Source: a virus
Strand: one strand, 5' to 3'
Virus record (IMG/VR): IMGVR_UViG_3300044547_000820
Location: 1-56,735 of that record
Length of the DNA: 56,735 nucleotides
Shown: positions 1,863-35,600 of the stretch, in pieces
Layout: every line of letters begins with the position of its first letter
Numbering within the stretch: the first letter of the stretch is position 1
Notes under the pieces: model-generated
Told to the model about the DNA's origin: nothing
The model's database searches: none
The model's input: the letters and a program-made list of their open reading frames with translations, nothing else
Made by a program: the position numbers and the translations under genes

Positions 1863-1933
1863 TCCTAAGCACTAATCGGTGCGGTGTAGCTCCCCAATTG
1901 ATAATATTAAAGCCTACTACTACAGGAGTCTCA

Positions 1934-4003
1934 ATGACCAATAATAATCCTAGGGAAGATTTTTTTTCCTTTAAACTAAGCGAAGATTTTGTTTCAACAT
2001 ATCGCACAAAGAAAGCGCCATTCGGATATCAGGATGCAGCAGGAAACTCTGTTGGAGAAATTACATTTCTTCGTACATATTCCCGAAAGAAACCAGATGG
2101 AACCAAAGAAACTTGGGTTGATGTTTGCGAGCGTGTGATTAACGGCATGTATTCCTTGCAAAAAGATCATTGCCGGAAGAATCGTCTTCCTTGGAATGGT
2201 GTAAAAGCTCAGTCAAGTGCTAAAGAAGCTTTTGACCGCCTGTTCAACCTTAAATGGACACCTCCCGGTCGTGGTCTTTGGATTATGGGAACAGAACTTG
2301 TAAATGTTCAGAGAAACTCTGCTGCTTTGCAAAATTGTGCCTTCGTATCTACTGCGGAAATGTCAAAGGACAATCCGGCGGAACCATTTGCGTTTCTGAT
2401 GGAAGCATCAATGCTCGGAGTGGGTGTTGGCTTTGACGACAAGGGTGCTGATAAAGATTTTACCATCCATGAATCAATTCGCCCAGTAATCACTCAGGTT
2501 ATTGATGACACTCGTGAAGGGTGGATGCAATCAACCGCTGACCTGATCAACTCTTATTTGAAACCAGAACAGAGTCCGATTGTTTTTGACTACTCAATGA
2601 TTCGCCCAGCAGGAGCACCTATTAAAACATTTGGTGGTACAGCTGCTGGTCATGAACCGCTCGAAAAGTTGCACAAATATATTCGTAAGATGTTCCTAGG
2701 TCGTGCAGGTCAAAAACTTACACGAGTTGATATTGCAGACATTGGCAACATGATTGGAGTTTGTGTTGTATCGGGCAATGTACGCCGTTCTGCTGAACTT
2801 CTAATCGGTAGACACAACGATGAGACCTTCTTGAATTTAAAGAACGCAGAAGCCTTCCCAGAGCGTAACTCTTATGATCCAGAGAATCAGGGATGGGCTT
2901 GGATGAGCAACAATTCTGTAGAAACAAATGTTGGCGAAGATCTATCTCACATTGTTGAAAGCATTGCTCTCAACGGAGAACCCGGAGTCATCTGGTTGGA
3001 TATGTCTCGTAAGTATGGTCGTCTAATTGATCCACCAAATAACAAGGACTGGCGTGTAGCTGGATACAACCCATGCGCAGAACAATCTCTTGAATCATAC
3101 GAGTGCTGCACCCTTGTTGAGACATATCTCAACCGCCATGAGTCTCTTGACGACTATAAGCGCACATTGAAATTCGCTTACCTTTACGCAAAGACCGTTA
3201 CTCTTCTTCCGACTCATTGGGAAAAGACAAATGCAATTATGCAGAGAAACCGCCGTATTGGAACATCAATGTCTGGCATCGCAAACTTTGCTGACAATCA
3301 TGGGGTTCCGACACTTCGTGAATGGATGGATCAGGGTTACGAGACAATTAAGCGTTACGACAATGTTTACTCAGAGTGGTTCGGTATCCGTGAATCAATC
3401 AAGATGACAACAGTTAAGCCTTCGGGAACTGTTTCTATTCTGGCAGGAGAATCTCCGGGAGTTCATTGGACTCCGGGTGGAGAATACTTCAATCGTGCAA
3501 TTCGTTTTGCAAATGATGACCCAATGCTTCCTCTGTTCAAAATGGCTAACTACCGTGTTGAGCCAGCTTCTGAATCTCCAGATACAACAAGTGTTGTTTT
3601 CTTCCCGATTAAATCAAATGCTAAGCGTTCTGAAAAGGATGTGACAATATTTGAGAAGATGGCGATTGCATCAGTAGCCCAGCGTTACTGGTCTGATAAC
3701 TCTGTATCGGTAACAATCTCATTTGATGCTGAAAAGGAAAAGGATCAAGTTGGAACTGTTCTTCATATGTACGATGGTCAGCTTAAAACTGTTTCGTTCC
3801 TACCTCAAGGCAACTTTACTTACCCACAAATGCCGTACACCCAGATTACAGAAAAAGAATATAAACAGGATGGTTTAGATAAACTATTCCCAATTGACTT
3901 TGCTGGTGTGTATGCAGGAATGGCTGCAGATGCAATCGGAGAAAGCTACTGCAGTACAGATTCTTGCGAAATCAAACTTATCAAAGACAACATTGCTCAT
4001 TAA
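1934..4003 (+). CDS. nrdJ: Adenosylcobalamin-dependent class II ribonucleotide reductase
   Basis: 689 residues from the ATG at 1934, chosen because AGGAG lies just upstream; the frame stays open back to 1898. It matches the monomeric B12-dependent ribonucleoside-triphosphate reductase type, which is about 740 residues in Lactobacillus. The redox pair and radical Cys are visible: C135 (LQNCAF), N379-P-C381-A-E383 and C392 (YECC), with the C-terminal shuttle pair C673-x4-C678 (YCSTDSC). The 11-residue C381-C392 spacing is the family value. It makes dNTPs for phage DNA synthesis without oxygen dependence, but needs host cobalamin. No B12 riboswitch is seen upstream. Confidence 0.96.
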   Translation: MTNNNPREDFFSFKLSEDFVSTYRTKKAPFGYQDAAGNSVGEITFLRTYSRKKPDGTKETWVDVCERVINGMYSLQKDHCRKNRLPWNGVKAQSSAKEAFDRLFNLKWTPPGRGLWIMGTELVNVQRNSAALQNCAFVSTAEMSKDNPAEPFAFLMEASMLGVGVGFDDKGADKDFTIHESIRPVITQVIDDTREGWMQSTADLINSYLKPEQSPIVFDYSMIRPAGAPIKTFGGTAAGHEPLEKLHKYIRKMFLGRAGQKLTRVDIADIGNMIGVCVVSGNVRRSAELLIGRHNDETFLNLKNAEAFPERNSYDPENQGWAWMSNNSVETNVGEDLSHIVESIALNGEPGVIWLDMSRKYGRLIDPPNNKDWRVAGYNPCAEQSLESYECCTLVETYLNRHESLDDYKRTLKFAYLYAKTVTLLPTHWEKTNAIMQRNRRIGTSMSGIANFADNHGVPTLREWMDQGYETIKRYDNVYSEWFGIRESIKMTTVKPSGTVSILAGESPGVHWTPGGEYFNRAIRFANDDPMLPLFKMANYRVEPASESPDTTSVVFFPIKSNAKRSEKDVTIFEKMAIASVAQRYWSDNSVSVTISFDAEKEKDQVGTVLHMYDGQLKTVSFLPQGNFTYPQMPYTQITEKEYKQDGLDKLFPIDFAGVYAGMAADAIGESYCSTDSCEIKLIKDNIAH

Positions 4004-15215: not shown

Positions 15216-15506
15216 ATGGCTAATACCATTAAAATTAAAAACTCAGGAACAGCCTCGGCAGTCCCAGCCTCACTTGAGCATGGTGAGCTGGGGCTTAACT
15301 ATGCCGATGGAAAGATTTTTTACAAAAACGGTTCCAATACAATTGTCCAGTTTAGCAGCGGAGGCTCTGTAGATCTTGATGCTTTAACCGATGTCATTAT
15401 TACAACCCCAGCATTAGGGCAGATTTTAGAATATAATGGTAGTTCATGGGTGAATAAGAATACTGTTCGTGACAATATGATCAAATTCTATATGGAGGTT
15501 TTGTAG
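15216..15506 (+). CDS. Short fibre paralogue
   Basis: 96 residues, strong Shine-Dalgarno TAGGAGG. The start MANTIKIKNSGTASAVPASL, then GELGLNYADGKIFYKNGSN, mirrors the N-terminus of the 362-residue fibre, and DLDALTDVIITTPALGQILE is a common fibre element. It looks like the attachment domain without a long shaft, either a decay product of a duplication or an adaptor. Its stop overlaps the next GTG (TAGTG). Confidence 0.75.
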   Translation: MANTIKIKNSGTASAVPASLEHGELGLNYADGKIFYKNGSNTIVQFSSGGSVDLDALTDVIITTPALGQILEYNGSSWVNKNTVRDNMIKFYMEVL

Positions 15507-15865
15507 TGGCTATTAATCAGAAAAGACTGGCTGGACCTACCCAGATTACTACGGCTAACACTGTCCAATACACAACTCCATTAAGCACAACTTCAATTGT
15601 AAAACAAATTGTTATGTGCAACACAACAGCTTCTGCCAAAACTGTAACAATCAGACTCAAGCCAGCCGGAGTCGCAGAAGCCAATACTCAAGATTTTATG
15701 AGCGCATTCAACATCAATGCGAATGAAACAATTTCTTTTGGATGTTCAATTGTCCTTACTAATAATGGAAACACAGCAAATGCTACAAATAGCGATCAGC
15801 TTGTTGCTTTCACTTCCGCAAACTCTGCTGTGAATATCATGTTTATGGGTTTTGAGGAGGCATAA
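15506..15865 (+). CDS. Small beta-rich virion protein, paralogue of 10160-10495
   Basis: 119 residues from a GTG with GGAGG upstream. It shares with the gene at 10160 a VKQIVMCNTTAS strand, a NANETISFGCSIVL turn and a C-terminal hydrophobic strand. It is probably the same fold used in another appendage. It is tightly coupled to both neighbours by single-base overlaps. Confidence 0.72.
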   Translation: MAINQKRLAGPTQITTANTVQYTTPLSTTSIVKQIVMCNTTASAKTVTIRLKPAGVAEANTQDFMSAFNINANETISFGCSIVLTNNGNTANATNSDQLVAFTSANSAVNIMFMGFEEA

Positions 15866-16593
15866 TGGCTGGTCTTGAACGCTACCCCGCACTTAATGCT
15901 TTTGCTTCATTCGCTGATGCTGCCGACTCAGTTTACGGGACTGGTTCTGATGGATCGGTTACTATCTCTGCAAATACAACATTGACATCTGATCAGTTTT
16001 ACTACAATCTTTCTGTTGACTCAGATGTTGTTTTAAACACGGCTGGCTATCGTGTCTTTGTGAAGAACCTCCTTACTCTTAGTTCTAACTCAACAATCGG
16101 TGTTGGTACAGCAAACACATACACGATGAATACAGGATTTTCCGGTGTTGGAACAATCCAAGGCGGTGGAGGTATTTCCGGTGCTGTGACAAACAGTCTC
16201 GGTGGAAACAGTGCAACACAGACTGCAACTGTTCCATCAGTAGCTCAAGGCGGAACTGGGGATAAGACAACAACAAGTGGTTATTGGTATCAGCCAACTC
16301 AGTCTATTAAGGGCTATGTGCTTAATGCAAGCAATACAACCCCACTCTTCCTTAGAGGCGGAGCTGGAGGAGCAAACGGTGTAGGCGGTGGAGTTCTTAT
16401 AATTGGAGCAAGGTATATTTCAGCCACAAGTTCATTCTTAGACGCTGCTGGAGCAACTGGAGCAGGCGGAGGGGGAGGTGGAGTAATCATTCTGGTATCA
16501 ACATACGCAACAATGCCATCAGGAATCACAACAGATGTGACTGGCGGAACAAGCTGTGTTTCAGGTTCGGTAATCTACTCCCAATTGGTTTAA
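15865..16593 (+). CDS. Gly-rich fibre/appendage protein
   Basis: 242 residues. After MAGLERYPALNAFASFADAA, the segment SVYGTGSDGSVTISANTTLT and GYRVFVKNLLTL are shared with the next gene. The C-terminal half is strongly Gly-rich (GGAGGANGVGGGVLIIGARY, GATGAGGGGGG), as in phage fibre tips with polyglycine-like loops. It is probably a receptor-binding or fibre-tip protein. Tandem duplication with 16595 is evident. Confidence 0.78.
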   Translation: MAGLERYPALNAFASFADAADSVYGTGSDGSVTISANTTLTSDQFYYNLSVDSDVVLNTAGYRVFVKNLLTLSSNSTIGVGTANTYTMNTGFSGVGTIQGGGGISGAVTNSLGGNSATQTATVPSVAQGGTGDKTTTSGYWYQPTQSIKGYVLNASNTTPLFLRGGAGGANGVGGGVLIIGARYISATSSFLDAAGATGAGGGGGGVIILVSTYATMPSGITTDVTGGTSCVSGSVIYSQLV

Positions 16594-16594
16594 T

Positions 16595-18073
16595 ATGGCT
16601 GGCTTAGAGAAATTCGGTTCACCCGCAAAAGTACAGAGAATCGGTAATGACTCTGTTTACGGAACGGGGTCAGACGGCAACACAGTAATTGCTTCCAACA
16701 CATCACTGTCTAGAGATATGTATTATAACAATTTAACGGTTAATAATGGTGTTCATCTAAACACTAATGGTTATCGTGTATTTGTTAAGGGATCTTTGAC
16801 TCTTGATGGAAATATTGGAGTCATCCCACAACAACTTTATTTTAATTCGACCCTTGCAGAGCGTATGCTCCTTAGTTCTGGTAATATCGCAAAATCTCTC
16901 GGAGGAAACTCGGGTGGTAATACTTTCACAGCTTCTCAAATAACCGATTCGGATAAGAAAAATCTTGAATTATTAATATCTGGAATTGTAGTAGATACCG
17001 CAGGAACAGTGTCTGCAATAAGAGGCGGAGCCGGTGGTGTAACTGGGGCTAATGGAACCGTAACCCCTGCAACAGCAGGCGGTGCTGCTTCTCTTACAAG
17101 GAACCCTCTTGTTGCAGGTGGAGCCGGTACAGCCGGAACAACACCACCTGCGTCTGCTGGAGGAACTGGCGGAATCGGCGGGGGTATTGTCCTCATTGTT
17201 GCCAAGCAAATCACTGGATCAGGAACAATTTTGGCTCAAGGGCAAAATGCAAATGTTGGAGCAAATAGCTCAACAGGAAGTGCGGGTAGTGCTGCTCCTA
17301 ACCAAACACTAACTCACCTCGCTGACAACTCAGCTCACTATATAACTGGTGATGGAACAACTGGTCCTCATGCTTCAGTTGCAGCTCCAGCCCTTCCACA
17401 TGGAGGGCATGTTCCTGCTACGCAGAACAGATTGCATGGTTATACATATCGTTATGTACATGTAGGAAATGTTCATCATACTCATAATCAGGTGTATGGA
17501 AACTGGGATGCAGATCATGGCGGAAACGCAGCCGGTGGACCTTTTGCTCACCACTTTAGTGACTTTAATGATACGCCTCATGTTAATGGCTTAACAGGAA
17601 CCTATACTGCAATTAACGGCATTCCTCACAACCATTCCCATAGAAACCAGCCCGGAGTCGCTTACACATTTGAATATTCTCATTATAGTGGAAGCTATAA
17701 CCCAATTCATGATGTTCCCCATTTTAGTTTCCATGACCCCGCAGAGCTTCAGATATTCGGTAAAGGTCATTACCCCGCAGCGCATGGTCATCGTAATTAT
17801 CCCAGACACCATCATGACAATAACCACTCCCACTTCAGAGCTAGAAATGCTGGAACGGTTTCATCGCAAGGTAGTACCGTATATCCCGGAGGAGCAGCTG
17901 GTGTGGCAGGTTCTTCAACAGCAGGTGCTTCTGGCGTAACTGGTGGTGGTGGTGGTATAATTATCGTTACAGATTCAATCGCTAACACAGTAGCAACATC
18001 AGTGGTTGGTGGTACTGTATCTGGTGGTGGAACAGGTCAATCAGGCACTGTTCTTACTATATTGAATCAATAA
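16595..18073 (+). CDS. Gly-rich fibre protein with His-rich insert
   Basis: 492 residues, paralogue of the preceding gene over its N-terminal and Gly-rich parts (SVYGTGSDGNTVIASNTSL, GYRVFVKGSLTLDG, GGTGGIGGGIVLIVAKQITG). Residues about 235-420 are a separate segment with roughly 29 His, including HH, HHH and H-x-H pairs (VHHTH, PHNHSH, RHHHDNNHSH), with Tyr, Phe and Pro. H-x-H clusters bind metal along the axis of other phage spikes and fibre tips, such as T4 gp37. It ends with another Gly-rich block. The insert may be the metal-stabilised receptor-binding head; this is inference. Confidence 0.8.
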   Translation: MAGLEKFGSPAKVQRIGNDSVYGTGSDGNTVIASNTSLSRDMYYNNLTVNNGVHLNTNGYRVFVKGSLTLDGNIGVIPQQLYFNSTLAERMLLSSGNIAKSLGGNSGGNTFTASQITDSDKKNLELLISGIVVDTAGTVSAIRGGAGGVTGANGTVTPATAGGAASLTRNPLVAGGAGTAGTTPPASAGGTGGIGGGIVLIVAKQITGSGTILAQGQNANVGANSSTGSAGSAAPNQTLTHLADNSAHYITGDGTTGPHASVAAPALPHGGHVPATQNRLHGYTYRYVHVGNVHHTHNQVYGNWDADHGGNAAGGPFAHHFSDFNDTPHVNGLTGTYTAINGIPHNHSHRNQPGVAYTFEYSHYSGSYNPIHDVPHFSFHDPAELQIFGKGHYPAAHGHRNYPRHHHDNNHSHFRARNAGTVSSQGSTVYPGGAAGVAGSSTAGASGVTGGGGGIIIVTDSIANTVATSVVGGTVSGGGTGQSGTVLTILNQ

Positions 18074-18081
18074 GAGGACTT

Positions 18082-18315
18082 ATGGAATTTAGACTTTCAA
18101 ATGAAAAGAAAAAAGAAATGGCTCAACATGCGTTGGACACACTGGAGATGCATTACTACAGGGAAATCGTATTGCTAGGGGAGAACCCCGAAACCTTCGT
18201 TGTCCCCAGCCCTTCAGAAATAACAGACCCAGTTCAGGCTGCATCATATGCTCAAGTGAATATTCTTAGCGAGAAAATTGTAAATATTCAAAACATTATT
18301 GACTCGATTCAGTAA
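18082..18315 (+). CDS. Small helical protein, unknown function
   Basis: 77 residues, with AGAGGA before the ATG. It is polar and largely helical, with MEFRLSNEKKKEMAQHALDT at the start and an amphipathic C-terminal helix. Lying directly behind a fibre gene, it could be a fibre assembly chaperone, by analogy of size and position only. The next ATG begins one base after its stop codon. Confidence 0.65.
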   Translation: MEFRLSNEKKKEMAQHALDTLEMHYYREIVLLGENPETFVVPSPSEITDPVQAASYAQVNILSEKIVNIQNIIDSIQ

Positions 18316-18316
18316 T

Positions 18317-18718
18317 ATGGATAGGGTCATATATTGTCCATCTAGTGAATTTTTAGAAGAAGCTTCATCTCTCGCTAGAAAAACCTATCTGCAGATTATA
18401 GTTGGGGATAATGACCACACAGCGGATTTAGACTTTGATAGAGGAAAAGTATTGGTTGTTTCTGTGCCTCAAAACAAAGGTTATTTCTTTTTAAAATCCG
18501 TTAAAGAAGGTTTTCACCAAAATATTAAATATAAAAATGAATTTTGTGTTATAAAGAATAAAGTTGATTTGTTTATTAATAATGACCTAATAAAGCCTGT
18601 ATACGAAGAATCTCATGTTGCAAAATTCATACATCTCTGTAAAGATGTTGGTGATTATTCCTGTAGAATAGTCGTTGATCAAAAAATAGAAGAGGAGTTT
18701 TCTTTTGTTGTCAATTAA
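18317..18718 (+). CDS. Unknown protein of the oxygenase/halogenase cassette
   Basis: 133 residues from the ATG at 18317; the frame is open from 18299 but inside the preceding gene. It is mixed alpha/beta, Lys/Asp-rich, with YLQIIVGDNDHTADLDFDRG and a C-terminal EEEFSFVVN. No family is recognised. It overlaps the oxygenase gene by 14 bases, so the products are made together. Confidence 0.65.
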   Translation: MDRVIYCPSSEFLEEASSLARKTYLQIIVGDNDHTADLDFDRGKVLVVSVPQNKGYFFLKSVKEGFHQNIKYKNEFCVIKNKVDLFINNDLIKPVYEESHVAKFIHLCKDVGDYSCRIVVDQKIEEEFSFVVN

Positions 18719-19304
18719 AAAAGAGGAAAAAGCGCCTTGTATTTGGATTTACAAAGATGCTTTTGATAGTAAAAATTTTTGTGAATTAGTTGAGAAAGAG
18801 ACAGAAGAAGACTGGGCATTAATTGACTGGTCGTACTCAGCAACTGGGGATGGTGACCAAAAGCAAACTAGCGAATACCGTACATCTCTTGAAATGCCAA
18901 TGAATCCTTTTTTTTCTGAAACAATCAATGAAAAGTTAAAACCACTTCAAGATATTTTTATGAATGACATTTTTACTAAGATTGACGAATGTATATGGGA
19001 TTATAGAACATGTTTTGATTTGAATCTAAAAGCGGATTCAGGGTTCTCTCTTCTGAAATATATGGATGGAGGGGAATATCATATCCATCACGACCATAGC
19101 CCTGATAACTCAAGAGTTCTAAGTTTGGTTGCATGTCTTGGTGATAATTTTGAAGGCGGAGAGTTGGAGTTTAACAATTTTGACTTGACAGTGAAGCTAG
19201 AAAAAAATTCTTTGATCCTTTTCCCGTCTAATTTTCCATATACTCATATTGCTCATCCCGTCAAAAGCGGTGTAAAATATAGTCTGGTAACATGGTTCCG
19301 ATGA
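18705..19304 (+). CDS. 2OG-Fe(II) oxygenase, prolyl 4-hydroxylase type
   Basis: 199 residues from a TTG with AGGAG 7 nt upstream. The double-stranded beta-helix iron site is clear: GGEYHIHHDH gives H128-x-D130, with distal H181 in YTHIAHPVKSG and K191 taking the usual Arg place that binds 2-oxoglutarate (KYSLVTWF). GDNFEGGELEF is typical of P4H-like enzymes. It would hydroxylate a side chain, possibly Pro in a phage protein, using O2 and 2-oxoglutarate. Similar genes are common near fibre genes of marine phages. The four-base overlap (ATGA) with the next gene shows coupling. Confidence 0.88.
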   Translation: MLSIKKEEKAPCIWIYKDAFDSKNFCELVEKETEEDWALIDWSYSATGDGDQKQTSEYRTSLEMPMNPFFSETINEKLKPLQDIFMNDIFTKIDECIWDYRTCFDLNLKADSGFSLLKYMDGGEYHIHHDHSPDNSRVLSLVACLGDNFEGGELEFNNFDLTVKLEKNSLILFPSNFPYTHIAHPVKSGVKYSLVTWFR

Positions 19305-20368
19305 GTAGTTTAAGTAATATCGATATCAATGCTTATTCTTGGTTTGCATTTACTGACCAAAAACAGCCATTCAAAGCAGAGGTCCGGGTTGAATCGGGCT
19401 ATGTGGACTTCCTAGGGTGCGATTTCTTCGAAATAGATTCTGGCACTATTATTTGTTTTAGGAAAGAAACTTATGCTGGATTTCATGACTTAAAGATAAC
19501 GGGTCAAAAAGTTGATCTTGTCCAGATGACTTCTGATACAAAAGCCTTGAACTTTGTTTTAAATGAAACGACTCAAAGCGGATACAACTTTTACCTTTTC
19601 CTAGGGTCTAAGGTCCAAGAGAATAATTCTATTATTGATGAGTCTTATAATACAGAAGGTTTAGGCATTAGGGATGATTTTGTTCGATGTGATTATAGGA
19701 AGCTAGGAGGGGTATCTTTTTACGAGCCTCAAACTGGTTACGATATTGTAAGCATTTGCTATGTCCTGAGTGTTACTGGTGTCGGTCATGTTGTCAGGAT
19801 AGGGACCAGTAATACAGGGAACTTGAATGCGAATACCCGTGGTGAATATTGTGCAGCCAAAACCTTGACAGGTATGATGAAAGTGCTTCATGAGTGGTCT
19901 ATTGTTTCTGAAGAGCCTTTTAATAATCAAGAAGAAATCGCAAGCAGTGCAGTACTTTTCTTACAATCTTTAAACTTGGATGATGAGATAATGTCAGAAA
20001 TTATATCATCAACTGGCGATATGGCTTTAGCTAGATATATAAGGGGAGACCTTGAGAGGTCTAATGAGATTGAGAATAGAGGTAAGTATGAAATGCCAGA
20101 AAGTTTTTCTAACTACATTAAAAGACACTACTCTTATCCAAGCTTGTATGAGCTACAAGAATCCCTTGATTTAGATATATTCGATGATGCACTAATTGAT
20201 AATTATTTAAAACACTTTGAAGGATTATTGTTTGAATACTTCTTCGAGCATGACATAAAAGTTTCGTCTTCTGCAGACTTGGAAACAATTTACCAATCCG
20301 ATAATACACCGGGCTATATTAAGAAATATATAGCACAATATAAAAGAGTCAAGAACATCAATTCATGA
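19301..20368 (+). CDS. Unknown 355-residue protein of the cassette
   Basis: 355 residues from the ATG at 19301 (ATGA overlap); an upstream ATG at 19292 would add three residues. The N-terminal 120 residues look beta-rich. The middle contains CYVLSVTGVGHVVRIGTSN, and the C-terminal third is helical and acidic (SYPSLYELQESLDLDIFDDA). I recognise no catalytic motif. It is locked between the oxygenase and the halogenase by ATGA overlaps at both ends, so it may be a partner or substrate carrier. It could also be a virion protein that the enzymes modify. Confidence 0.7.
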   Translation: MSSLSNIDINAYSWFAFTDQKQPFKAEVRVESGYVDFLGCDFFEIDSGTIICFRKETYAGFHDLKITGQKVDLVQMTSDTKALNFVLNETTQSGYNFYLFLGSKVQENNSIIDESYNTEGLGIRDDFVRCDYRKLGGVSFYEPQTGYDIVSICYVLSVTGVGHVVRIGTSNTGNLNANTRGEYCAAKTLTGMMKVLHEWSIVSEEPFNNQEEIASSAVLFLQSLNLDDEIMSEIISSTGDMALARYIRGDLERSNEIENRGKYEMPESFSNYIKRHYSYPSLYELQESLDLDIFDDALIDNYLKHFEGLLFEYFFEHDIKVSSSADLETIYQSDNTPGYIKKYIAQYKRVKNINS

Positions 20369-21834
20369 TTGATATTGAAACAGCTATTATTGGAAGTGGA
20401 ACAGCTGGCTTGGTCGGGGCAATCATGTTACGGTCAGCTTTTCCCTTGATGAATATCACAGTGATATCATCATCTCAAGTAGGGATTATCGGTGTTGGTG
20501 AGGGATCAACAGAGCATTGGCGTATGTTTATGGATGCATGCAACATCTCTCTTGGAGAGCTTTTGAATGAAACAAAAGCAACGCATAAGAATGGGATTCG
20601 GTTTGAGAATTGGACAAGCCATACCCCCGATTACTTCCATAGCGTTAGCGATGCAAGCACTATCGGTTATTACAACTTTTACGGTTTATATAATGGTCTT
20701 ATTGAGAACAATAAAACATTAACTGAGAATATCTCATCAAGAGCGATGATAGAAAACAAAGTTCGCGCTAATGGACCACATGAGTCAGTGAATCAGTTCC
20801 ATTTTGATACTGTGCTTCTTAATAAGTATTTGACAAGATTATGTAAAGAAAGAAATATTCGTTTTATTGATAGCAAGATTGTTCAAACAAATTTGGATAA
20901 TGAGAATGGGCATATTGAATCAGTTCTATTGGAAAACGGGGATGTGCTTGAGGCGGGGTTTTGGATTGATGCATCAGGAATGAGTCGCATTCTTATATCA
21001 GAGGTGAGTGATGCTAAATGGAAGTCTTTCTCCAATCACCTGCAGATGAACTCGGCGATTCCTTTCCCGACTCAATCTGACCCTTCTGGGGAAATCAGAC
21101 CCTACACTCGGGCTAGGGCTATTCAGAATGGATGGGTTTGGGAGATTCCAACTCAGGAAAGACGGGGTAATGGGTATGTCTATTCCTCAAACTTCTGCTC
21201 TGACGATCAAGCTATTTCTGAAGTGTCAGCTCTGCTGGGATTCCAAGTTCAGCCAGTAAAGACTATTAAATTTGATCCCGGTCATCTTGAGAAAATGTGG
21301 GTAAAGAATTGCGTTGCAATTGGTCTGTCTTCTGCTTTTGTTGAACCAATCGAAGCGTCTTCTATTGGCGGGACAATTCAGCAAATGAGGTGTTTGGTGG
21401 AGAATCTGTCTTCATACAAGATTGGTCATACAGCTGTTCAGAATGAATACAACAAGAAGATGAACATCATGATGCAGAATATTTTATCAATGATCTATCT
21501 TCATTACATATCTGATAGAAGAGATAGTGAAATGTGGGTAAACCAAGCGAACACCCCAGTGCCGGAGTATTTACAGAACTTATTAGATTTATGGAGTGAA
21601 AGACCTCCATTCTATAATGACATACCAACAAGTAATTATGAGATGTTCCATGTCCCTCATTTTTATCATGTAGCTCAAGGGCAAAAGGTTCTTTCGCAAG
21701 AAGCTTCTTCATTGTCTATTTATCGTTTTAATATTCGAGATTCTGTAAAGACAGCAATGTATTCTGCTAAAATGAAACAATCAGACCATGCAAAGGTGGA
21801 CCATGCGCAATCGCTCAAAGAAATACAATTATAA
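20365..21834 (+). CDS. Flavin-dependent tryptophan-halogenase-like protein
   Basis: 489 residues. The FAD-binding GSGTAGLVGA (residues 10-19) and GVGEGSTEHW match flavin-dependent halogenases. K75 in HKNGIRFENW aligns with the essential Lys that carries the hypohalous acid adduct. The diagnostic W-x-W-x-I-P motif is seen as NGWVWEIP near residue 255. FVEPIEASSIGG near residue 327 carries the second catalytic Glu. It would need FADH2 and halide, and would halogenate Trp, an indole or another aromatic. No flavin reductase is encoded nearby, so the host would supply it. Such genes occur in some marine phages with unknown substrate. Confidence 0.9.
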   Translation: MIDIETAIIGSGTAGLVGAIMLRSAFPLMNITVISSSQVGIIGVGEGSTEHWRMFMDACNISLGELLNETKATHKNGIRFENWTSHTPDYFHSVSDASTIGYYNFYGLYNGLIENNKTLTENISSRAMIENKVRANGPHESVNQFHFDTVLLNKYLTRLCKERNIRFIDSKIVQTNLDNENGHIESVLLENGDVLEAGFWIDASGMSRILISEVSDAKWKSFSNHLQMNSAIPFPTQSDPSGEIRPYTRARAIQNGWVWEIPTQERRGNGYVYSSNFCSDDQAISEVSALLGFQVQPVKTIKFDPGHLEKMWVKNCVAIGLSSAFVEPIEASSIGGTIQQMRCLVENLSSYKIGHTAVQNEYNKKMNIMMQNILSMIYLHYISDRRDSEMWVNQANTPVPEYLQNLLDLWSERPPFYNDIPTSNYEMFHVPHFYHVAQGQKVLSQEASSLSIYRFNIRDSVKTAMYSAKMKQSDHAKVDHAQSLKEIQL

Positions 21835-22612
21835 AATTGCAATGTTCAGGGGGGATACCCCCAGACCAAAAAAGAATGAGGTTGTAATTGTCCCCAATGA
21901 CAATCGCTTGCTGGATATCGCCCCCTATGCTGCTCAAGGGAATCTGCCATCTTGGTGGAAGGATCTCCCTGTTAAAGATATGTCTCTAAGAAGGTGCAAC
22001 GGAACTTATGACTATCTCCAGTATGGTTTTATTATACCTATGTGGACAGATGTAACGGTTAGACCAGACGCTTCTGGTGTAAGATTTGAATATAAACTAG
22101 GAAACTATGGTGATGACTACGCTTTTCATGTAGATGGCTTTAGCACTGAAATGGCAAAAGGTTGTCCTTTTGGCGAAAATCGAAAATTAAAAAATTTTAA
22201 TTATCCAAAACTCGTGACTCCTTGGAGGTATTTTACACCAAAAGGTATTTCCTTGATGGCTTTGCCTATTCTCCATGAGCCAAACCCGAATTACACGGTT
22301 ATGCCCGGTATTGTTCATACAGATTATTACAATCAATTACATATTGTAATATCCGTTCTAACTGACAAAGAGTTCACAATTCCTGCCGGTACACCCATGC
22401 AGCATATGGTTCCCATCAAAAGAAATGAGAATATTAAAAAACTTGTTTTTGGGAATGAAAGCATGTCTAGATTTCACATTGGAAATGGAATGGGGAAAGA
22501 GATTGGTAAGGGTAGTCTTTCGCAACAGGATAATAGCCAGCTCTATAGAAGAATTAGAATGAAGTATGATCAAGATATTGAAAGAAAAAAATGGTATTCT
22601 TTAAGAAGATAA
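21803..22612 (+). CDS. Unknown protein downstream of halogenase
   Basis: 269 residues from the ATG at 21803 (AAGGTGG just upstream), inside the halogenase 3' end. ATGs at 21788 and 21842 are alternatives, the latter after TATAAA. It contains NLPSWWKDLPVKDM near residue 45, a Cys (KGCPFGENRK), then beta-rich IVHTDYYNQLHIVISVLTDK and FTIPAGTPMQHMVPIKR. I associate this pattern with an uncharacterised family beside marine-phage oxygenases and halogenases but cannot name it confidently. It is part of the same overlapping gene chain. Confidence 0.7.
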   Translation: MRNRSKKYNYKIAMFRGDTPRPKKNEVVIVPNDNRLLDIAPYAAQGNLPSWWKDLPVKDMSLRRCNGTYDYLQYGFIIPMWTDVTVRPDASGVRFEYKLGNYGDDYAFHVDGFSTEMAKGCPFGENRKLKNFNYPKLVTPWRYFTPKGISLMALPILHEPNPNYTVMPGIVHTDYYNQLHIVISVLTDKEFTIPAGTPMQHMVPIKRNENIKKLVFGNESMSRFHIGNGMGKEIGKGSLSQQDNSQLYRRIRMKYDQDIERKKWYSLRR

Positions 22613-22881
22613 TTGACGCAATCAAGACGATGAGTAGTCGTTCTTATTGGACAAGGGTTAACTCAGTGGAAGCTTGGGGTTTTGCAACAAAGATTGCAAT
22701 CATCTTTCCGGGTCTTCTTCTTGATAAACAATGGTGGTGGTTATATATCTTTGCCATCATCTCAAGCATAAGTCTTATCTGGACATCAACCCGCAAGACC
22801 TTGCCAACAATTATCCTTTTCAATGTGCTATGGGTAATCCTAGCCAGCTTGTCTATTCTAAAGCATTTTTGGTGGTTTTAG
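22591..22881 (+). CDS. Aromatic-rich three-TM membrane protein
   Basis: 96 residues from the ATG at 22591, which overlaps the previous gene by 22 bases. Three hydrophobic helices are evident (about 28-45, 47-65 and 74-92), rich in Trp and Ile (KQWWWLYIFAIISSISLIW, ILKHFWWF). It belongs to the cassette by overlap. It could anchor or export something, or act in lysis or exclusion; none of this is shown by sequence. Confidence 0.65.
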   Translation: MVFFKKIIDAIKTMSSRSYWTRVNSVEAWGFATKIAIIFPGLLLDKQWWWLYIFAIISSISLIWTSTRKTLPTIILFNVLWVILASLSILKHFWWF

Positions 22882-26606: not shown

Positions 26607-29600
26607 ATGAGTGACGCACAAGCCGAAATCCTAGTTAGAGCCGAAATGAATGACCGGCTTTCGGCTGCTCTTCAACGCATAAACGGTCAATTAAGCAACA
26701 CTGTTCGTTCTCTTAATGGTTTAAAAGCAACAAGTCAAAGTGCTGTTGGTGCAACCAATGCTGTTGGTGCAGCGATATCTAGACTTTCAAGAAACTCTAG
26801 TTCGCTGAATACATCTCTAAAAGGTAATGCGTTAAGTCAACACGCATTGTCAGCTTCTTTTCGAAATAGCCGTATACAGGCTGATGCTCTTAACTCACAA
26901 CTTGGTCGTCTGCAATCCGCCGGGTTAAATACTGTTCCTATCCGTGCATACATAACTCAATTGAGAGTTATGGACTCCATGCAAAAACAAATTGGAAACT
27001 CAATGCGAGCAATGAACTTCCAGCAAATGGGTTCTCAACTCAATGCATTCTCGCAAAGAATGACCAACGCTGGAACACGCATGTCTATGGGTCTCACCCT
27101 GCCACTTGTTGCTTTCTTCCGGATGGGGTTTTCATCATTCAGAGCGTTAGATAAACAAGTCATTCGTTCAACCAAACTAATGGCTGACTCTTTCGATGAT
27201 TCTGTCAAGAACACAGCTGGGGCTGCAAAAGGATATACCGACCTTCAGTATGCAGTAAAAACCCTTGGAGATGGTCTTGACAAAATCACAAGTAAATGGG
27301 GTGTATCAAGAGAACTTGTGCAGGGTCTTGCTGGAGATTTTGCTGAGCTTGGTATTTCTGCACCAGAGTCATTGGCGAGATTGACTGAATTAACTGTTGA
27401 ATTTGAAAAATTGGGTAATATTGACATTACACAAGCTCAATCAACAATTCAGGCTATGTTCCAAACTATTTCTAGAATTAGAACAGACAAGGGGTTGGAT
27501 GTAACGAGTGAAAAGTCGCTTAAGCAGATGACAGAAGAGATTAATGGAGCAATTGCTTTCTTCAACTTTGCTGAAAACAAAACAACGCTATCTCTTAATA
27601 ACATTGCAGAAGCCTTTCCTGAAGTAACCGCTGCTGCAACCTCTTTTGGTTTAAATATGCAAACAACAGCTGCATTGCTTGTACCAATGATTGGTGCATC
27701 ATTTCAGGTTGGAGCCTCAGCGAACTCCATTAAAGTTTCTTTGCAGAGAATGGTTGCAACAACCAAACAGAACAAAGACATGCTTAAAGATTTAAGCGAT
27801 ACTATTGGCAAGGAATTTGCTCCATCTCTTGGTTTGGGTGCAGGTGGACTTATGGATCTTATTACTAACTATGATTTGCTTAAGGCAAAACTTAGCAAAG
27901 CTGATCAATTAGTATTCTTCTCTAAATTGTTTGGTGTTCGTCAGGGTCCAAGAATGGAAGTTGCCATTGCTCAAATGAATAAATATGATAAGAGATTAAA
28001 AGCAGTTGGAACTCAAGAGCAAAAGATGGCAAAACAGGCTGAGGATGCTATAAATACTCAATTAAAAATTCGTGGATTTACCAAAAAAGAAGATGAAATA
28101 AAAATTGGGAATCTTCAAGAAATAGCCAATCTTACATCTGCAGCTCAAGAGATGGATGAAGATGGAAATTACAAAGCCAAAGCTTTAGCAATTCAGGCTG
28201 GACAAGAGGTAGCTCTTTTTAACCTTAGAAATGCAAATCAAGCTCTCCAAAAAAATGGAATAACTCAATATGAATACAGTGGAAAAGTTATGCTTGATAA
28301 TACAAAGAAGCAAGAAAGACAGAATAAACTCGGTAAAGAGTTTAATAATATTCAAACAGAATCAGGAAAACTTCTTACCGCTCAGTTGTATGGTAAGTCT
28401 TTAACCGAAGAAAATAAGAATGACGAATTAGAGCGTGTACGGAACTCTGTCGAAGTTCAATATGGTAAAGCAAGAGAGGCTGCTAAGTCGATTGCTCGTG
28501 AATTAACCTCTGTGTTTGGAGGAATTCTTGAACAGATTAACCCGATCATTGAAAGAATAGCTAAATTCTTTAGAGAACTTTCGGACCCAATTAAGAAAAT
28601 ACTGGGAGTAATGCTAATTCTATTGGCTCTTATTGGACCACTAATGAGAACTATTGGTGCAGTAGGACAGCTTGGTGCGATATTCAACAATGTTCGTGCT
28701 GGCGGTATCAAACGGTTTAAAGGAAATGTTGTTGAACTAAATCAGTCTCTCATGAAGACAAGCGACATTGCATTAAGAATTGGCGGTAACTTTAGGAAAT
28801 TTGGACAAGATGGAAAAATCTTTACCTCTAGAAAAGATGCAAAGAGACTTGAAAAACTTGCTCCAATTATTGCAAAGCAAGATCGGGGAGAAGAGCTTAC
28901 TGCTAAGGAGAAATCAAAGGGTGGTAAGTATATCAAGCAACTGGCTGGTCGTAAAGCCGTTCTAGATGGTACGGCTTTGCAATCGCAAAAGAATTTCTAC
29001 GGTCTTGATCAAGCAACAAAAGATTATGTAAGGTCATTAGATCCTATTTATCAAACAAACAAGATGGTGAATGAACTTCTTCAAGAGCAATCTAAAAAGA
29101 CAGCCAGCATTTTCAGAAAAGCAGCCCAAAAGTTTCTTAGAATCAGAGGAGCATCAAATAATGCGACAGGAGCGGGTATTGATCCTGCGACTGGTGGTGT
29201 CCGTGATGCTGCACCATACGGACCAGCAGTTCCGACTCCAGCCCCTATCACATCAGCAATTGGGGGTATTACAACACTTAGAGATATCCTTAGCCAAATT
29301 CTTTCCACTCTTCAAGCAATTCAAGCTTGTGTTTGTAATGCAAAAGCAGCAGCAACCGGAAGACCATCTCCTGCTGCAAGCGGTGCTCCAACCAATGCAC
29401 CGCCCGCAGGATTGTCAGGCGCTGTCGTAACTCCGGTAACACTTGGACAAAAGCCTACAACTGCAACAGGAACACCTTCTCCAACAGGTGCTGCTGCTAC
29501 AGCTGTGGACTTGTCAAATCTATCAGACGAAGAGCTTGCTGCTTCAAAAGCTAGACTTGAAAAAGAAGCAAAACAACTTGAGGCTGAGGCAAAAGAAACA

Positions 29601-32600
29601 GCTAAAATTCTTGCTAAAGCTGAAAAAGAAAAAAGAAAGCTTGCAGAAAAGCAATATAAAAATGCCTTAAAGAAAAAACTATTTTCTACGGAAAGCGTTG
29701 TTGGCGCTCTTAAGCCACAACTTAATGTAAGATCTGGACTTCCTGCAAACTTCATGAACCCAATGGCAATGATGAATGCCATGAAGCCCACGATGCCTGA
29801 GATACCTGCAGGTGGAGATATTCTCAAACCAGCAATTGATAAGGGAATGCATGCTGTTGCGGAAGCAGTCATGGTGTCTATCGGTAAGAAGCCAGTTGCC
29901 CCAGCAGCAAGCCCAATTCCTGCTGCAATTGAAGCAGCAACAGCCACTGCGGAAGAAACGGTTGCAACAGATGTCAAGCAGAAAGCAAAGAGAGGTCGTG
30001 GAAGACCAAAAGCTGCTGGACCAATCCCTGCTGCTATTGATATTGCCGTTGCAGAAGGCGAAAAAACCGTTGCAGAAGCGATTGTTGCTGACACAAAGAA
30101 GACTCGTGGAAGACCAAAGGGTACTACCAAGAAGCCAGCAGTCACTCCAGCAGTGAGTACGGCGCAACGAGATTACGCAGCGGTTGACGGATTTGGCAGA
30201 GCAGTTTCTGGTCCAAATAAAGCAACTGTTGATCTTGAGGCTGCTGGTGCGTCAATTAAAAAACTCCTCAATCTTGAGGGAACAGCAAAGAGTGCTATTC
30301 TAACAAAAGATTCACTAATTAAATTATTTACAATTCTCGGACAAGATGTTCCAGTGAAGTTGCGTCAACTTGATTCTCTTGTTAACAAAGAAGGAGAAGC
30401 TATCAAGGTGAATCTCAGCACCTTGGGCAAAATTGCTGGTGCTATTAAAACTGGTGTTGCTGGGAAAGCTCTTGCTCCTGATGCAAAAGTTGGGGCTGCA
30501 TTTACTGGAACATCAGCTAAAACAAGTCCATTTTATGCTAAAAATTTCAATGAGGCTGTTAGTTCATCAGTAGGAAATATAAAGTACAAACCTGTTACCG
30601 CAATTAAACCTGAAGATATTGCAGTTGCAAAAGAATCTGTTGCTCAAGTGACAGAATTTGAAAAAGAAAGACAAATCCTTAAAGATAAAATAAAGATTCT
30701 TGCCGATCAAGCAAGAGTTATTAAAGGAAAGATTGATGATCTTGTTGCTCAAGAATCTCGGGCAGCAAAGGTTGGAAACCTATCATTGGCTCGTGTTCTT
30801 CAGATTAAAATTCTTTCTGAAAAAAGAAAGATGTCTGATGTTCAGAGGGCTATTTCGGAGCTAAAAAGAACAACTGATTTGATAAACACTGAGCTTCAGA
30901 GCGTCAGGCAGTCTGCAAATTTAGCATTTAATAATGCACAACAACAAATCGCCTCCAGCGGTGGTGTACCTTTTGCCGGTGCGAAAGGTAAGGGGATGCC
31001 GTTCGGCAGTACTACTGCTAGAGCGAGAGCTAAGCGCACAGGCGAAAGATACACGGGTCTTGTTTATGGAGGAAGAGATTCTAAAGGTGATCCGACTGAG
31101 GAACTCAGGGAGAGAAGAGAGGTTACAAGACCCAGTTATAGCAGAAACGATCCAGAAGAAAAGGATCGTCAAGCAAGAAGGGTTGCTCTTAGACCAAAGA
31201 GAAAAGCTGGAATTGAACTTCTAAGACAAGCAGTCACTCAACAACCGGACTATATTGAAAGAGAAAAAAGAAGAGTTGCGCAAGCAGCAAGGGATGCTGA
31301 ATTTGCAGCAAAACAAGAGGCAGATCGTCTTGCGAAACAACAAGAAGCTGCTCTTAAGAAACTAGGCGTAAAGCCCGAAAAAGTCGAACCAGTACAATCC
31401 TCTCCTATAAAGAGGGGATTCATGTCTAAAGAGCAGTTCCTTGCGGGGCAAGCTGAGAATCTTCAATCTCTTAACGAACAGATTAAAGCAGCAAATGATA
31501 GTGCAAGAAGTGCAAAAAGAGCTGTCAAAAATTTAGAAACTCAGATTCAAGAAGTTACTGAGTCAAAGAAACGCATTCCGGGCGGTAAGAAAAATGCAAT
31601 TGATGAACTCACTACAAGACTAGAAGATGCCAAGAAGAAAGCGGAACAAGCCAAGGCTGCAGCAAAAGCAGCAAAAGATGATATAGCTCGCATCAATGCT
31701 TATGACCCAGCAAAGGGCGGGCTTCCTCCTAAGCCAGTCGCTCCAGATATCTCTGCTGCAGTAAGACCTAAATCATTGAGTGCTGGTGTACCAACTGGAG
31801 CAACAACTCTTGGAAATATTAACAGTCAACTCTCAGCAACATTGCAAATTCCGACTGCTGTTCTTGATCAGTTCTACCAGACACTCAAGATTCAAGGTAA
31901 GGGTCTTGCTGAAGTTGCATCCAATGCTGGTCTTCAAGCAACTGACGACTTGGCTCTTCTTAAACAGGAGCTTCTCAAGATTGGTCTTACTATTGAACAA
32001 GCACTTGCTAAACCAGCAGAAACGCTGAAGCAACTTCAGGCTGTTAAGTTTCAAGATAGCGGAGAGGTACAAGCTCTATTCCAGAGACTTGTTATGTTTG
32101 CCAGAGATGTTGCAAATAAAGGTGTTGAAAAAGCCTTCCAAGATACTATTGCAAGATTCCAGAACCTTAAGCCCGGAGCTGCTGTAAAGCCAGCATCTGC
32201 AAAACCAGCATCTGCACCAGCAAATAAAGCAGCGTATGGTTTTGGTCTTGAATCAGCTGACCAAAAAATTCTTGCTGAACAAATTAAGTCTCAAATTATT
32301 GCTCAAAATAAAGCTGCAATAGACTTTATGAAATTTGAAACCAAGACTCTTGAGTATATTGGTAGAGCCTTTGCGATTGAAGGAAGAGGTAAGGGCAAGA
32401 AAGAAGTTGTCGTTGCTAATCTAATAAAGAAACTTAAAGAAATGGGCATTGCTGTTGAAAAAGCAATTGTAACCGAAGCCATTGCTCCAATCAATGCTGC
32501 AAAAGATGCTGTTACAACAACAGCAGCAACCGCTGCCGGTGCAAGTGTTGGTAAACCTAAAGCACCAGTAACGGCACAACCCGGTAATGTCATCGGTAAT

Positions 32601-35600
32601 CTTGGAGCAACACAGATTCAAAATTTCATGTCTATTGCAAATTCCGTATCGGAAGATTCAGCAACCTTTGCTACACAAGTTAACAGATTGGCTCAAAAGG
32701 CTGGTCTTGAGGGTCAAGAGACATCTGTTATTATTCAAAAAATACTTAGCGCATTTGAAGTTTATTTAAAGAATAATGGACTCACAGAAGCTCAATTAAG
32801 ACAGGCTGATGCTTTACTGAGAGAAATTGCAACAGGGACAGCAAGACCTTTTTCTGTTGCAGCAAGTAAAGTTTACGAATCAGCAAGGGGTTCAAAAGAA
32901 GAGCCAAAAGCAAGCGGTCTCCGTGGGAAAGCTGTCGGTGCAACTGCTGACGAAACTGCAAAAGTTGTAGAAGCAGAAAAGAATCTGACTGTTGCTGTTG
33001 AAAAAACAATCGCAGATGCAGCTAAGGCGGTAACAATTTCAGCAAATGCTGCTGCGAACCCTCGTCTTGCAGCTATTGCTTCTGGAGTAAAACTTTCACC
33101 TCTTGCATCACCTACAACTGGAGTTGCTGGTCCAAAAGCAACAGACGCAACTCCAGCTGTTGCTGTCCGCACTCCTTACTCAATGCCATATATTAATGAA
33201 ATTAACTCTCAAGCTATTAACACTAAAGCAGTGGCAGATTCTATTGCTGAAAATATTAGATTAGCGTCATCAGGAACTGCTAAGAAAGTCCAATCCATGC
33301 TTTCTGGTATTCAGGAATTGGTAAGATCCGTTCATGGTGCCCAGATTGCAAAAGATTTTGCTTTCATAACCGGTGGAAATATTACAGATGCTCTGAAGTA
33401 TCTTGATCGTATCATCCAAGAAAAATTAGTAAAAGAAGCAGAAAAAGTAAAGGCTGTTGCAGATACAGTCAAGGTAGCCCCGGTTGCCCCTGCTCCACCA
33501 GTTGCTCCAAAACCACCTGTCGCAACTGCCCCTGTGTACCCTGCACCTCCTTCTAAACCAATGCTTATGCTCAATGCTGCTAAAGAAAGCCCAAGAAGGG
33601 CAGCTGCGCAGGCAAAAGCTGCTGCTGCTGCGGTTGGAACAGTTGGTACAACACCAATTGAAATGCCAAGAGCCAGAGTTAATCTCCGTGAAATGATTGC
33701 AGAAAGACTTGCAATAAAAGCAACAATGGAAGCTGAGACAGCAGCTATGGCGGAAAGAATTAGAAGCAATGTTGCATTAAGTCAAGCAATTCGTGAGCGT
33801 AGTAGAGCGATGGATGTAGCAAATAGGTCAGACAGAGTTCAGAAACTGATTGATGCAACACCTATTCCTCCAAGACCAAGCGCTGGTCGTAATAGAATCC
33901 CTCTAACGAGAGAAGAGTTTACTGGTCAAACTATTGCAAAGACAGCGAATGTTATGTTTAACCCAATTAAGCAAGTGAAGGTGATTGGTAGTGCATTAGG
34001 TTCAATTGGTGGTGCATTAGAGTCTGTTGCCAAGAGAGTGTCGCCAAAGAGGTTTGGTGATCAAAATGTCTATAAGGCAAGAGATTACATGGGCGAAGCT
34101 CGCCGTACAACTTTTGGTCGTATCGCTGATAGAAATCTTCAAGTAACAAGTCGTCAGTCTCGGATTGCGGAAAAAGATGCAAGAGTCATCGCTAAAGAGA
34201 CAAGAGCTACAGACAGACCAAATCGCAATATTGCAAGACTGACTCAAAGTCAATTGCCATCGCAATTTAGACAAGCCATTAATCCAAGTATTGATACTCT
34301 AAAGGCAATTGCTAAAACATACGGTCCACCGATTAAATCTGCAATGAATTTTGCAAAGAAAAAATCAATTGAAGGATTGAAGATTGCTGGTCAGGTAACT
34401 AGAGAGCTTACCCTCCTCCCTGTTAGAGTACCAATTGTATTTACAACTGGTCTGATTGAAGCTCACAAGTTTGCAATGAAGGGTGTTCGTGCTGGAATTG
34501 CAAAACTTGATAGCATTGCCTTCTTTAATACAACATACACAGGTGCTGCAATTATCACGCTTGCTATAACCCTTGAGAAGGGTTTAACGAAACTGGGAAG
34601 TGCTATGACAATGGGAGGTCAAGCCCTATTAACCTCTGGTCAGATTGCTGCAAAGTTTGTTCAAACTGCATTTACTAATCCAAAACAAGCTCTTGCGATG
34701 GCTTCAACTGGTCTTACCAACTCTAAGGATCTGTTGTTCAAGGCAGGTGCTGGTCTTGTTGCAGCAGCCTCTAGTATCAAAGTAGGCGCAATCAAGCTTG
34801 CACAGTCTGCAGGCTCAGCTGCAGTAGCTGGAGCGAAAATGGCTGGCGGAGCAATTGGAAAAGCAGCAATGGCTCCTGTTCGTGGAGTAAAAACAATGTT
34901 TGTCGGAGGAAGTACTTTTGTTCCTCAAGGAACAGATGCTGCTGGAAATGCTATTGCTACAAAGAAGGGCGGTCTCTTTAGAAGAAGCGTTACTCAAACA
35001 ACTGATGCGACAACCGGAATGATGACTGAGCAAAGAGGCAAGGGAATGTTCGGTAGAATGAAGGGCGGACTCGGAAAAGGCGTAATGGGCGGAATTCGTG
35101 GTCTTGGAACCGCTGCCGGGTCAATGTCTTCAATGATGCTCTATCAACTTGGTCCTGCTGGTATGGCTCTGCAGGGACCGTTGAATAAAGTGATTGGACT
35201 CTTGACTAAGACAAAGGGTGCATTCTTCGGAGTAACTATCCCAATTCTACTCGTTGTCGGAGCAATCTTCCTTTTGAAGAAGACATTCAGTGCATACGGT
35301 GATAAGACGACTGGTGTTGCAGAAAACTTTAAGAAAGCTTTTGCTGCAGTTATGGTTGTTGTCAATATGCTCAAGACAGCATTCTTTGACTTCTTTGCAT
35401 CATTATTTGGTGGAGCAGAAAGTAGCGGAGAAGCAACAGGCAATATTGCAACTGTTGTAACAAAGGTCGCCGAGGCTACTCGTAAGTTCGCAGTGGCTTT
35501 CCAAGCTTTCTTTACGAAATATATTCTTCCAGCTATTTATACAATGCTTTCTGGTTTTTCAATGATCATCAGAGCTATCTTTAGTTTTGTTTCAAACTTG

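Follow-up and report, generated by a model that had tools for sequence, protein, structure and literature searches.

The cassette and its neighbouring genes

The window analysed here, a virus record of 56,735 bases (IMGVR_UViG_3300044547_000820), carries at positions 18317–22881 a compact cassette of six genes, designated A to F, which combines a 2-oxoglutarate (2OG)-Fe(II) oxygenase with a flavin-dependent halogenase and follows a group of Gly-rich, fibre-tip-like genes. The six open reading frames (ORFs) are all open, lie on the plus strand and each overlap the next, the overlaps A/B, B/C, C/D, D/E and E/F measuring 14, 4, 4, 32 and 22 nucleotides (nt) with the starts used here; the start codons of A, C and E are choices, and B starts at TTG. 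The initial annotation had described an overlapping six-gene cassette located between fibre genes and connectors, and both parts of this description are borne out, with overlaps of 4–32 nt, fibre-type genes upstream, and a head-tail adaptor and tail genes downstream. Matches to portal, protease, capsid, head-tail adaptor and major tail protein place the cassette within the virion gene region.

The conserved unit reaches further upstream than the cassette and includes a Gly-rich tip gene region at 15506–18315, which the initial annotation did not contain. This region, also on the plus strand, is headed by h119 (15506..15865), a small protein of PHROG 20100 (unknown function), followed by tip1 (15865..16593), a Gly-rich, fibre-tip-like protein of 242 amino acids (aa) in which His is nearly absent, and by tip2 (16595..18073), a predicted Gly-rich fibre tip of 492 aa with a low-complexity insert of the His/Tyr/Asn/Pro-rich kind. 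The N-terminal domain of tip2 is common to tip1 (alignment A1), and the insert sits between Gly-rich segments. Across relatives the insert is strikingly low in complexity and variable, for example HHHTPGGHHHTPGGHHHTPNGHAHPH in locus L019 and NPDASDHHHDSEQNHHTNPDASDHHH in locus L036. Some tip2 proteins (L005 3694-5700, L007 3680-5668, L008 3579-5690 and L015 3667-5697) carry an extra N-terminal domain of ~180 aa (GDIGPGGGIIF...W..PS..EL) that, judged by eye, looks DUF1566-type. Between tip2 and the cassette lies x77 (18082..18315, plus strand), a small protein that matches no family; an ORF of ~75–80 aa occupies this place in many relatives.

The halogenase D (20365..21834) aligns to the PF04820 profile over nearly the full profile length (residues 7–449 to positions 3–451 of 458; E-value 7e-103). 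Within its family, G10, G12 and G15 of the GxGxxG motif, K75, W257 and E327 are kept in 94/94 sequences, while the WxWxIP motif, which reads WVWEIP in the window, retains W259 in 81, I261 in 90 and P262 in 93 of the 94. Judged by these residues, D is an intact flavin-dependent halogenase with predicted halogenating activity. Its closest solved relative by sequence is 6frl, a tryptophan halogenase superfamily protein (E-value 3e-56), ahead of the viral halogenase VirX1 (PDB 6QGM), which matches D residues 2–421 at an E-value of 8e-40. No flavin reductase gene was recognised among the cassette genes, and a host flavin reductase is therefore assumed.

The oxygenase B (18705..19304) matches PF13640 (E-value 4e-14) and also PHROG 61, a family of 2OG oxygenases. 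The window protein contains the complete facial triad H128/D130/H181 together with K191, the basic residue for 2OG, and among ~186 family sequences H128 is found in 180, D130 in 175, H181 in 179 and K/R191 in 185. The catalytic residues that the initial annotation had reported for both enzymes (H128/D130/H181; K75 and W-x-W-x-I-P) are thus present and conserved across the families, and its enzyme names stand in part. B is a 2OG-Fe(II) oxygenase of PF13640 type, but the prolyl-hydroxylase label is weak, the top PDB matches being bacterial prolyl 4-hydroxylases at an E-value of ~0.006 over 63 residues only; D is a PF04820 halogenase, but Trp enters only through the family name, the adjoining tips being His-rich and not Trp-rich. 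As a separate observation, window B also matches PHROGs 274 and 2297, and the label 'DNA endonuclease V' looks misleading for some 2OG oxygenases; genes beside the halogenase of S-H38 (L289 9425-9916) bear the same name.

Among the remaining genes, A (18317..18718) encodes a 133-aa protein for which profile searches of Pfam and PHROG gave no credible family, and F (22591..22881) encodes a short, hydrophobic protein of 96 aa that is probably a membrane protein. Gene C (19301..20368) encodes a 355-aa protein with no relative by sequence in Pfam, PHROG, NCBIfam or PDB; weak matches to Fam20C and PHROG 25476 were discarded. Structure prediction, which the initial annotation had proposed for C and E, gives for C a model with a predicted local distance difference test (pLDDT) score of 82.7 and a beta-rich N-terminal and helical C-terminal part. 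This fold has no match among solved structures in the PDB, and in BFVD it matches three uncharacterised phage proteins (E-values 7e-20 to 3e-8). The C family contains an invariant RCD motif (129–131) and an invariant EW motif (198–199).

Gene E (21803..22612) belongs with PHROG 7084 and DUF6065-like proteins and is predicted to adopt a dUTPase-like fold. Weak dUTPase (PF00692) matches occur in 8/35 family members and DUF6065 (PF19541) matches in 4/35, the best at 9e-9; window E itself does not match the PF19541 profile and scores 18.1 bits against the dUTPase profile, below the 22-bit cut-off. The family profile aligns to dUTPases at motif 3 and beyond. The E model (pLDDT 85.6) matches dUTPases in Foldseek at an E-value of 4e-5 and a probability of 1.00, with a template modelling score (TM-score) by query length of only ~0.3. 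In dUTPases the motif-3 Asp is the catalytic base; this position is occupied by His172 in the window protein and, across the family, by His in 22/35, Asn in 7/35 and Asp in 5/35. E is probably a ligand- or protein-binding relative of dUTPases and not a dUTPase.

The dUTPase-like fold of E raises the alternative that the cassette modifies nucleotides or viral DNA, with E binding the nucleotide and the oxygenase or halogenase modifying bases, and homologues of E in haloviruses and in S-RIM4 do lie near thymidylate synthase or ribonucleotide reductase genes. We regard this as very improbable, given that 29/35 family members have His or Asn in place of the catalytic Asp, that B belongs with PF13640 and PHROG 61 oxygenases, and that the linkage is to fibre genes and not to replication genes.

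Recurrence of the cassette and its relation to the tip insert

Searching viral contigs with D yielded 68 distinct halogenase loci, which were examined with iteratively built profiles of the six families. In most of these loci D is accompanied by B and E, and frequently also by A, C and F, with the gene order varying. Where a halogenase and a tip occur together with enough flanking sequence (44 distinct loci), E is present in 44, B in 43, A in 36, F in 28 and C in 23. Such recurrence beside the halogenase means that the arrangement cannot be put down to chance. The six families are found together in phages that share few other window genes, as found by the gene-neighbourhood search that the initial annotation had suggested; its proposal of one coupled pathway, which it had made to depend on the genes co-occurring elsewhere, gains support from this co-occurrence across otherwise differing phages. 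Within the 44 loci, C alternates with a second oxygenase: 23 loci combine C with fewer than two copies of B, 17 have at least two copies of B without C, four have neither and none has both (Fisher p 9e-9, uncorrected for kinship).

Beyond the cassette, and leaving aside short fibre-type and small proteins, h119, tip1 and tip2 are the most widely shared window genes. Their homologues occur in 46/68 halogenase loci, compared with 15/68 for the downstream connector genes, so the tip genes accompany the cassette even in phages with different virion genes elsewhere. The order fibre, h119, tip1, tip2, small ORF and cassette is kept in many halogenase loci, and the distance from tip2 to the nearest cassette gene is below 400 nt in 55/63 distinct halogenase loci, with a median of 245 nt. 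A scan of bacterial sequences with the tip profile returned eight contigs of metagenome-assembled genomes, two of which have the cassette; these two (L301 and L302), labelled Gammaproteobacteria, hold a complete A-B-B-D-E cassette behind the tip and are possibly stray phage contigs or a hint at the host.

The linkage was also examined in reverse, by three rounds of searches on viral contigs with profiles of the tip N-terminal domain only, blind to the enzymes, and the cassette was found behind nearly all complete tips. Pooled with the halogenase loci, these searches comprise 63 distinct tips with the halogenase, 40 with B and E only, 8 without a cassette, counted only where downstream sequence sufficed, and 17 incomplete cases; part of the 63 had been fetched with D itself, and the reverse searches alone give the same pattern. 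Three states can be distinguished: a His-rich insert together with D, a Tyr/Asn- or Pro-rich insert together with B and E without D, and an insert-less tip without the cassette, the no-cassette tips inspected having no low-complexity insert. Specifically, at least 10 His per 60 aa are reached by 58/63 halogenase-linked tips, compared with 1/40 tips that have B and E without the halogenase. In the parsable tips, 39 with and 32 without D, median insert composition is 14.4% versus 5.1% for His, 4.0% versus 13.2% for Tyr and 6.8% versus 16.1% for Asn.

The Trp content of the insert is the same with and without the halogenase in these 39 and 32 tips, and on this ground Trp was rejected as a shared tip target for the window tip family. 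One insert (L162) contains 50 His, zero Trp and zero Tyr, so that if the target lies there, His is the only aromatic residue besides Phe. His as the halogenated residue is a lead from residue composition and not a proof.

Where a tip is accompanied by B and E in the absence of a halogenase, its repeats are rich in Tyr/Asn (SYGYSYPGNN, NPTNYGSN) or in Pro/Thr/Asn, and 2–3 copies of E are often present; the E copy number seems to rise where D is absent. Individual loci of this kind (L154, L207, L209, L217, L219, L232 and L234) have His-free tips with Pro/Thr/Asn/Tyr repeats, such as NPNNAPTYTFTAG, and carry 2–3 copies of E and 1–2 of B without a halogenase. Elsewhere in the window, a glycosyltransferase (849-1862) and a B12-dependent-type ribonucleotide reductase (1898-4003) lie just upstream of the portal gene, and a 3967-aa ORF (26607-38510) with long low-complexity Ala/Pro/Lys-rich stretches occupies the tape-measure position.

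Proposed tailoring of the fibre tip

The linkage to the tip, the intact active-site residues, the absence of the cassette from insert-less tips and the tracking of the halogenase with His across one split together point to the fibre tip, and we consider it reasonably likely that the cassette is a tailoring set that hydroxylates and halogenates this tip. In such a mechanism, tip1 and tip2 would form the distal, receptor-facing fibre end, and the low-complexity insert of tip2, held by Gly-rich segments, would serve as the substrate. B, acting with a second oxygenase in some relatives and with C in others, would hydroxylate insert side chains (Asn, Pro, Asp or His), and D would halogenate insert aromatics with host-reduced flavin, most likely His here and otherwise the few Tyr or Trp. 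B, the proposed hydroxylase, accompanies nearly every insert type, and D, the proposed halogenase of the insert, accompanies the His-rich type. E, whose dUTPase-like fold lacks the catalytic Asp, would serve in binding or as a scaffold, and A, C and x77 may act as chaperones or partners. As a benefit, the modified tip might differ in stability or in how it binds its receptor or metals.

Several observations weigh against this proposal. In five of the 63 halogenase loci the tip stays below 10 His per 60 aa. A tree of tip1, a protein that does not include the insert, separates tips with and without the halogenase across one branch; phylogenetic independence of the His/halogenase match, tested on this tree, was not found, with one change only, and because of this one split the match is a single evolutionary contrast that may reflect lineage or habitat. 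A comparison of tip2 with PDB sequences gave no match at E-values up to 0.1, and its designation as a receptor-binding tip is a putative one drawn from gene position and Gly-rich sequence. Moreover, the halogenases of P-SSM2, S-PM2, Syn1, S-RIM44, S-MbCM6, Sf-CH3, S-SCSM2R and HTVC008M adjoin no His-rich or clear tip gene, and since most of the other isolate halogenases examined thus lie without an adjoining tip gene, the tip link is not universal for viral halogenases.

The single event on the tip1 tree would also fit host-takeover or auxiliary metabolic enzymes hitchhiking in a mobile host-range module, as would the reshuffled gene order within the cassette, fibre regions being recombination hot spots. 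This explanation is nevertheless quite unlikely, for insert-less tip homologues are without any cassette gene, B and E are kept both in nearly all halogenase loci and in insert-bearing loci without a halogenase, and the phage Syn10 has a similar layout around a different kind of tip.

Extending the tailoring proposal further, it is conceivable, though distinctly tentative, that there is a class of phages whose low-complexity His-rich (or Tyr/Asn-rich) tips mature through the action of dedicated oxygenases, together with a halogenase and a dUTPase fold put to new use, yielding hydroxylated and halogenated His in the virion, with enzyme content following insert type and with tip maturation as the native role of VirX1-like viral halogenases. 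Each of the enzyme families is already known, as are phage enzymes that modify virion proteins by glycosylation. A literature search of partial coverage returned no halogenase, oxygenase and dUTPase-like cassette tied to a low-complexity fibre tip, and nothing on a link between tip, halogenase and oxygenase or on DUF6065. The proposal offers a concrete candidate substrate for VirX1 and likewise for many of the phage 2OG oxygenases that are currently classed as auxiliary metabolic genes. If the proposal is true, phages change the chemistry of their own receptor-binding tip post-translationally, adding a host-recognition layer missed by sequence-based host-range prediction, and the cassettes would supply enzymes for halogenating or hydroxylating the side chains of proteins.

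Comparison with known systems

The locus of VirX1, the characterised halogenase of cyanophage Syn10, resembles the window in having tips upstream of the halogenase, with an E homologue and oxygenases near it. Specifically, two Gly-rich proteins with His-containing loops, CPUG_00134 and CPUG_00135, one of which matches Gly_rich_2, are encoded a few hundred bases upstream of VirX1, and downstream follow a second halogenase-like gene, the E homologue and then small genes, several of which match 2OG/JmjC families. One of these, CPUG_00124 (L083 9394-10104), is annotated as hypothetical, matches JmjC_2 and finds the histidyl-hydroxylases NO66/MINA as its best PDB matches (E-value 3e-6). The locus differs from the window in its two halogenase-like genes, its many more oxygenases and its Gly_rich_2 tips, and is a partly independent parallel to the window module.

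VirX1 has been treated as a small-molecule halogenase that halogenates many small aromatics in vitro; a review reports that it forms a trimer, that its active site is large and accessible and that its substrate range is broad, and lists it without a biosynthetic gene cluster (PMC8407142). Its in vitro activity speaks for the alternative that the cassette produces or alters a small molecule, such as a halogenated or hydroxylated aromatic, acting on the host or on competitors, as does the naming of most solved PF04820 halogenases as tryptophan halogenases, enzymes of small-molecule pathways, and the position of most isolate cyanophage halogenases away from tip genes. The trimeric form, large open active site and missing gene cluster of VirX1, for their part, suit a large substrate, and family profile searches recognised no scaffold-making or partner gene among the cassette genes. 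A small-molecule role appears unlikely in view of the constant linkage to one fibre-tip family and the dependence on the tip insert. The initial annotation had left the choice between fibre proteins and a small metabolite, and fibre modification is the option we favour, because the cassette is tied to one tip gene family and changes with its insert.

The closest solved relative of D, 6frl, which we take to be BrvH, is a bacterial enzyme for which, to our knowledge, neither a natural substrate nor a link to phage fibres has been described. In phage S-SRM01, the halogenase is flanked on one side by fibre genes and on the other by a gene that bears the annotation gp37-gp38 adhesin tip complex; the adhesin tip (L291 9482-10570) has a Trp- and Cys-rich loop, CWGGGECGRRQVCNWWGNCWWEASQW, where the window family has His.

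The gp38-type adhesins of T-even-like phages, with their polyglycine-rich distal tip, resemble tip2 in that Gly-rich segments alternate with variable loops and in being encoded at the end of the fibre gene cluster. In contrast to gp38, tip2 has no detectable PDB sequence match, and we know of no low-complexity His/Tyr/Asn-rich insert and no linked enzymes in the gp38 system. Finally, although the window oxygenase is of PF13640 type and none of the window cassette genes was recognised as JmjC, the ribosomal oxygenases NO66 and MINA, connected to these loci through the Syn10 JmjC_2 match, provide a precedent for the hydroxylation of His in proteins.

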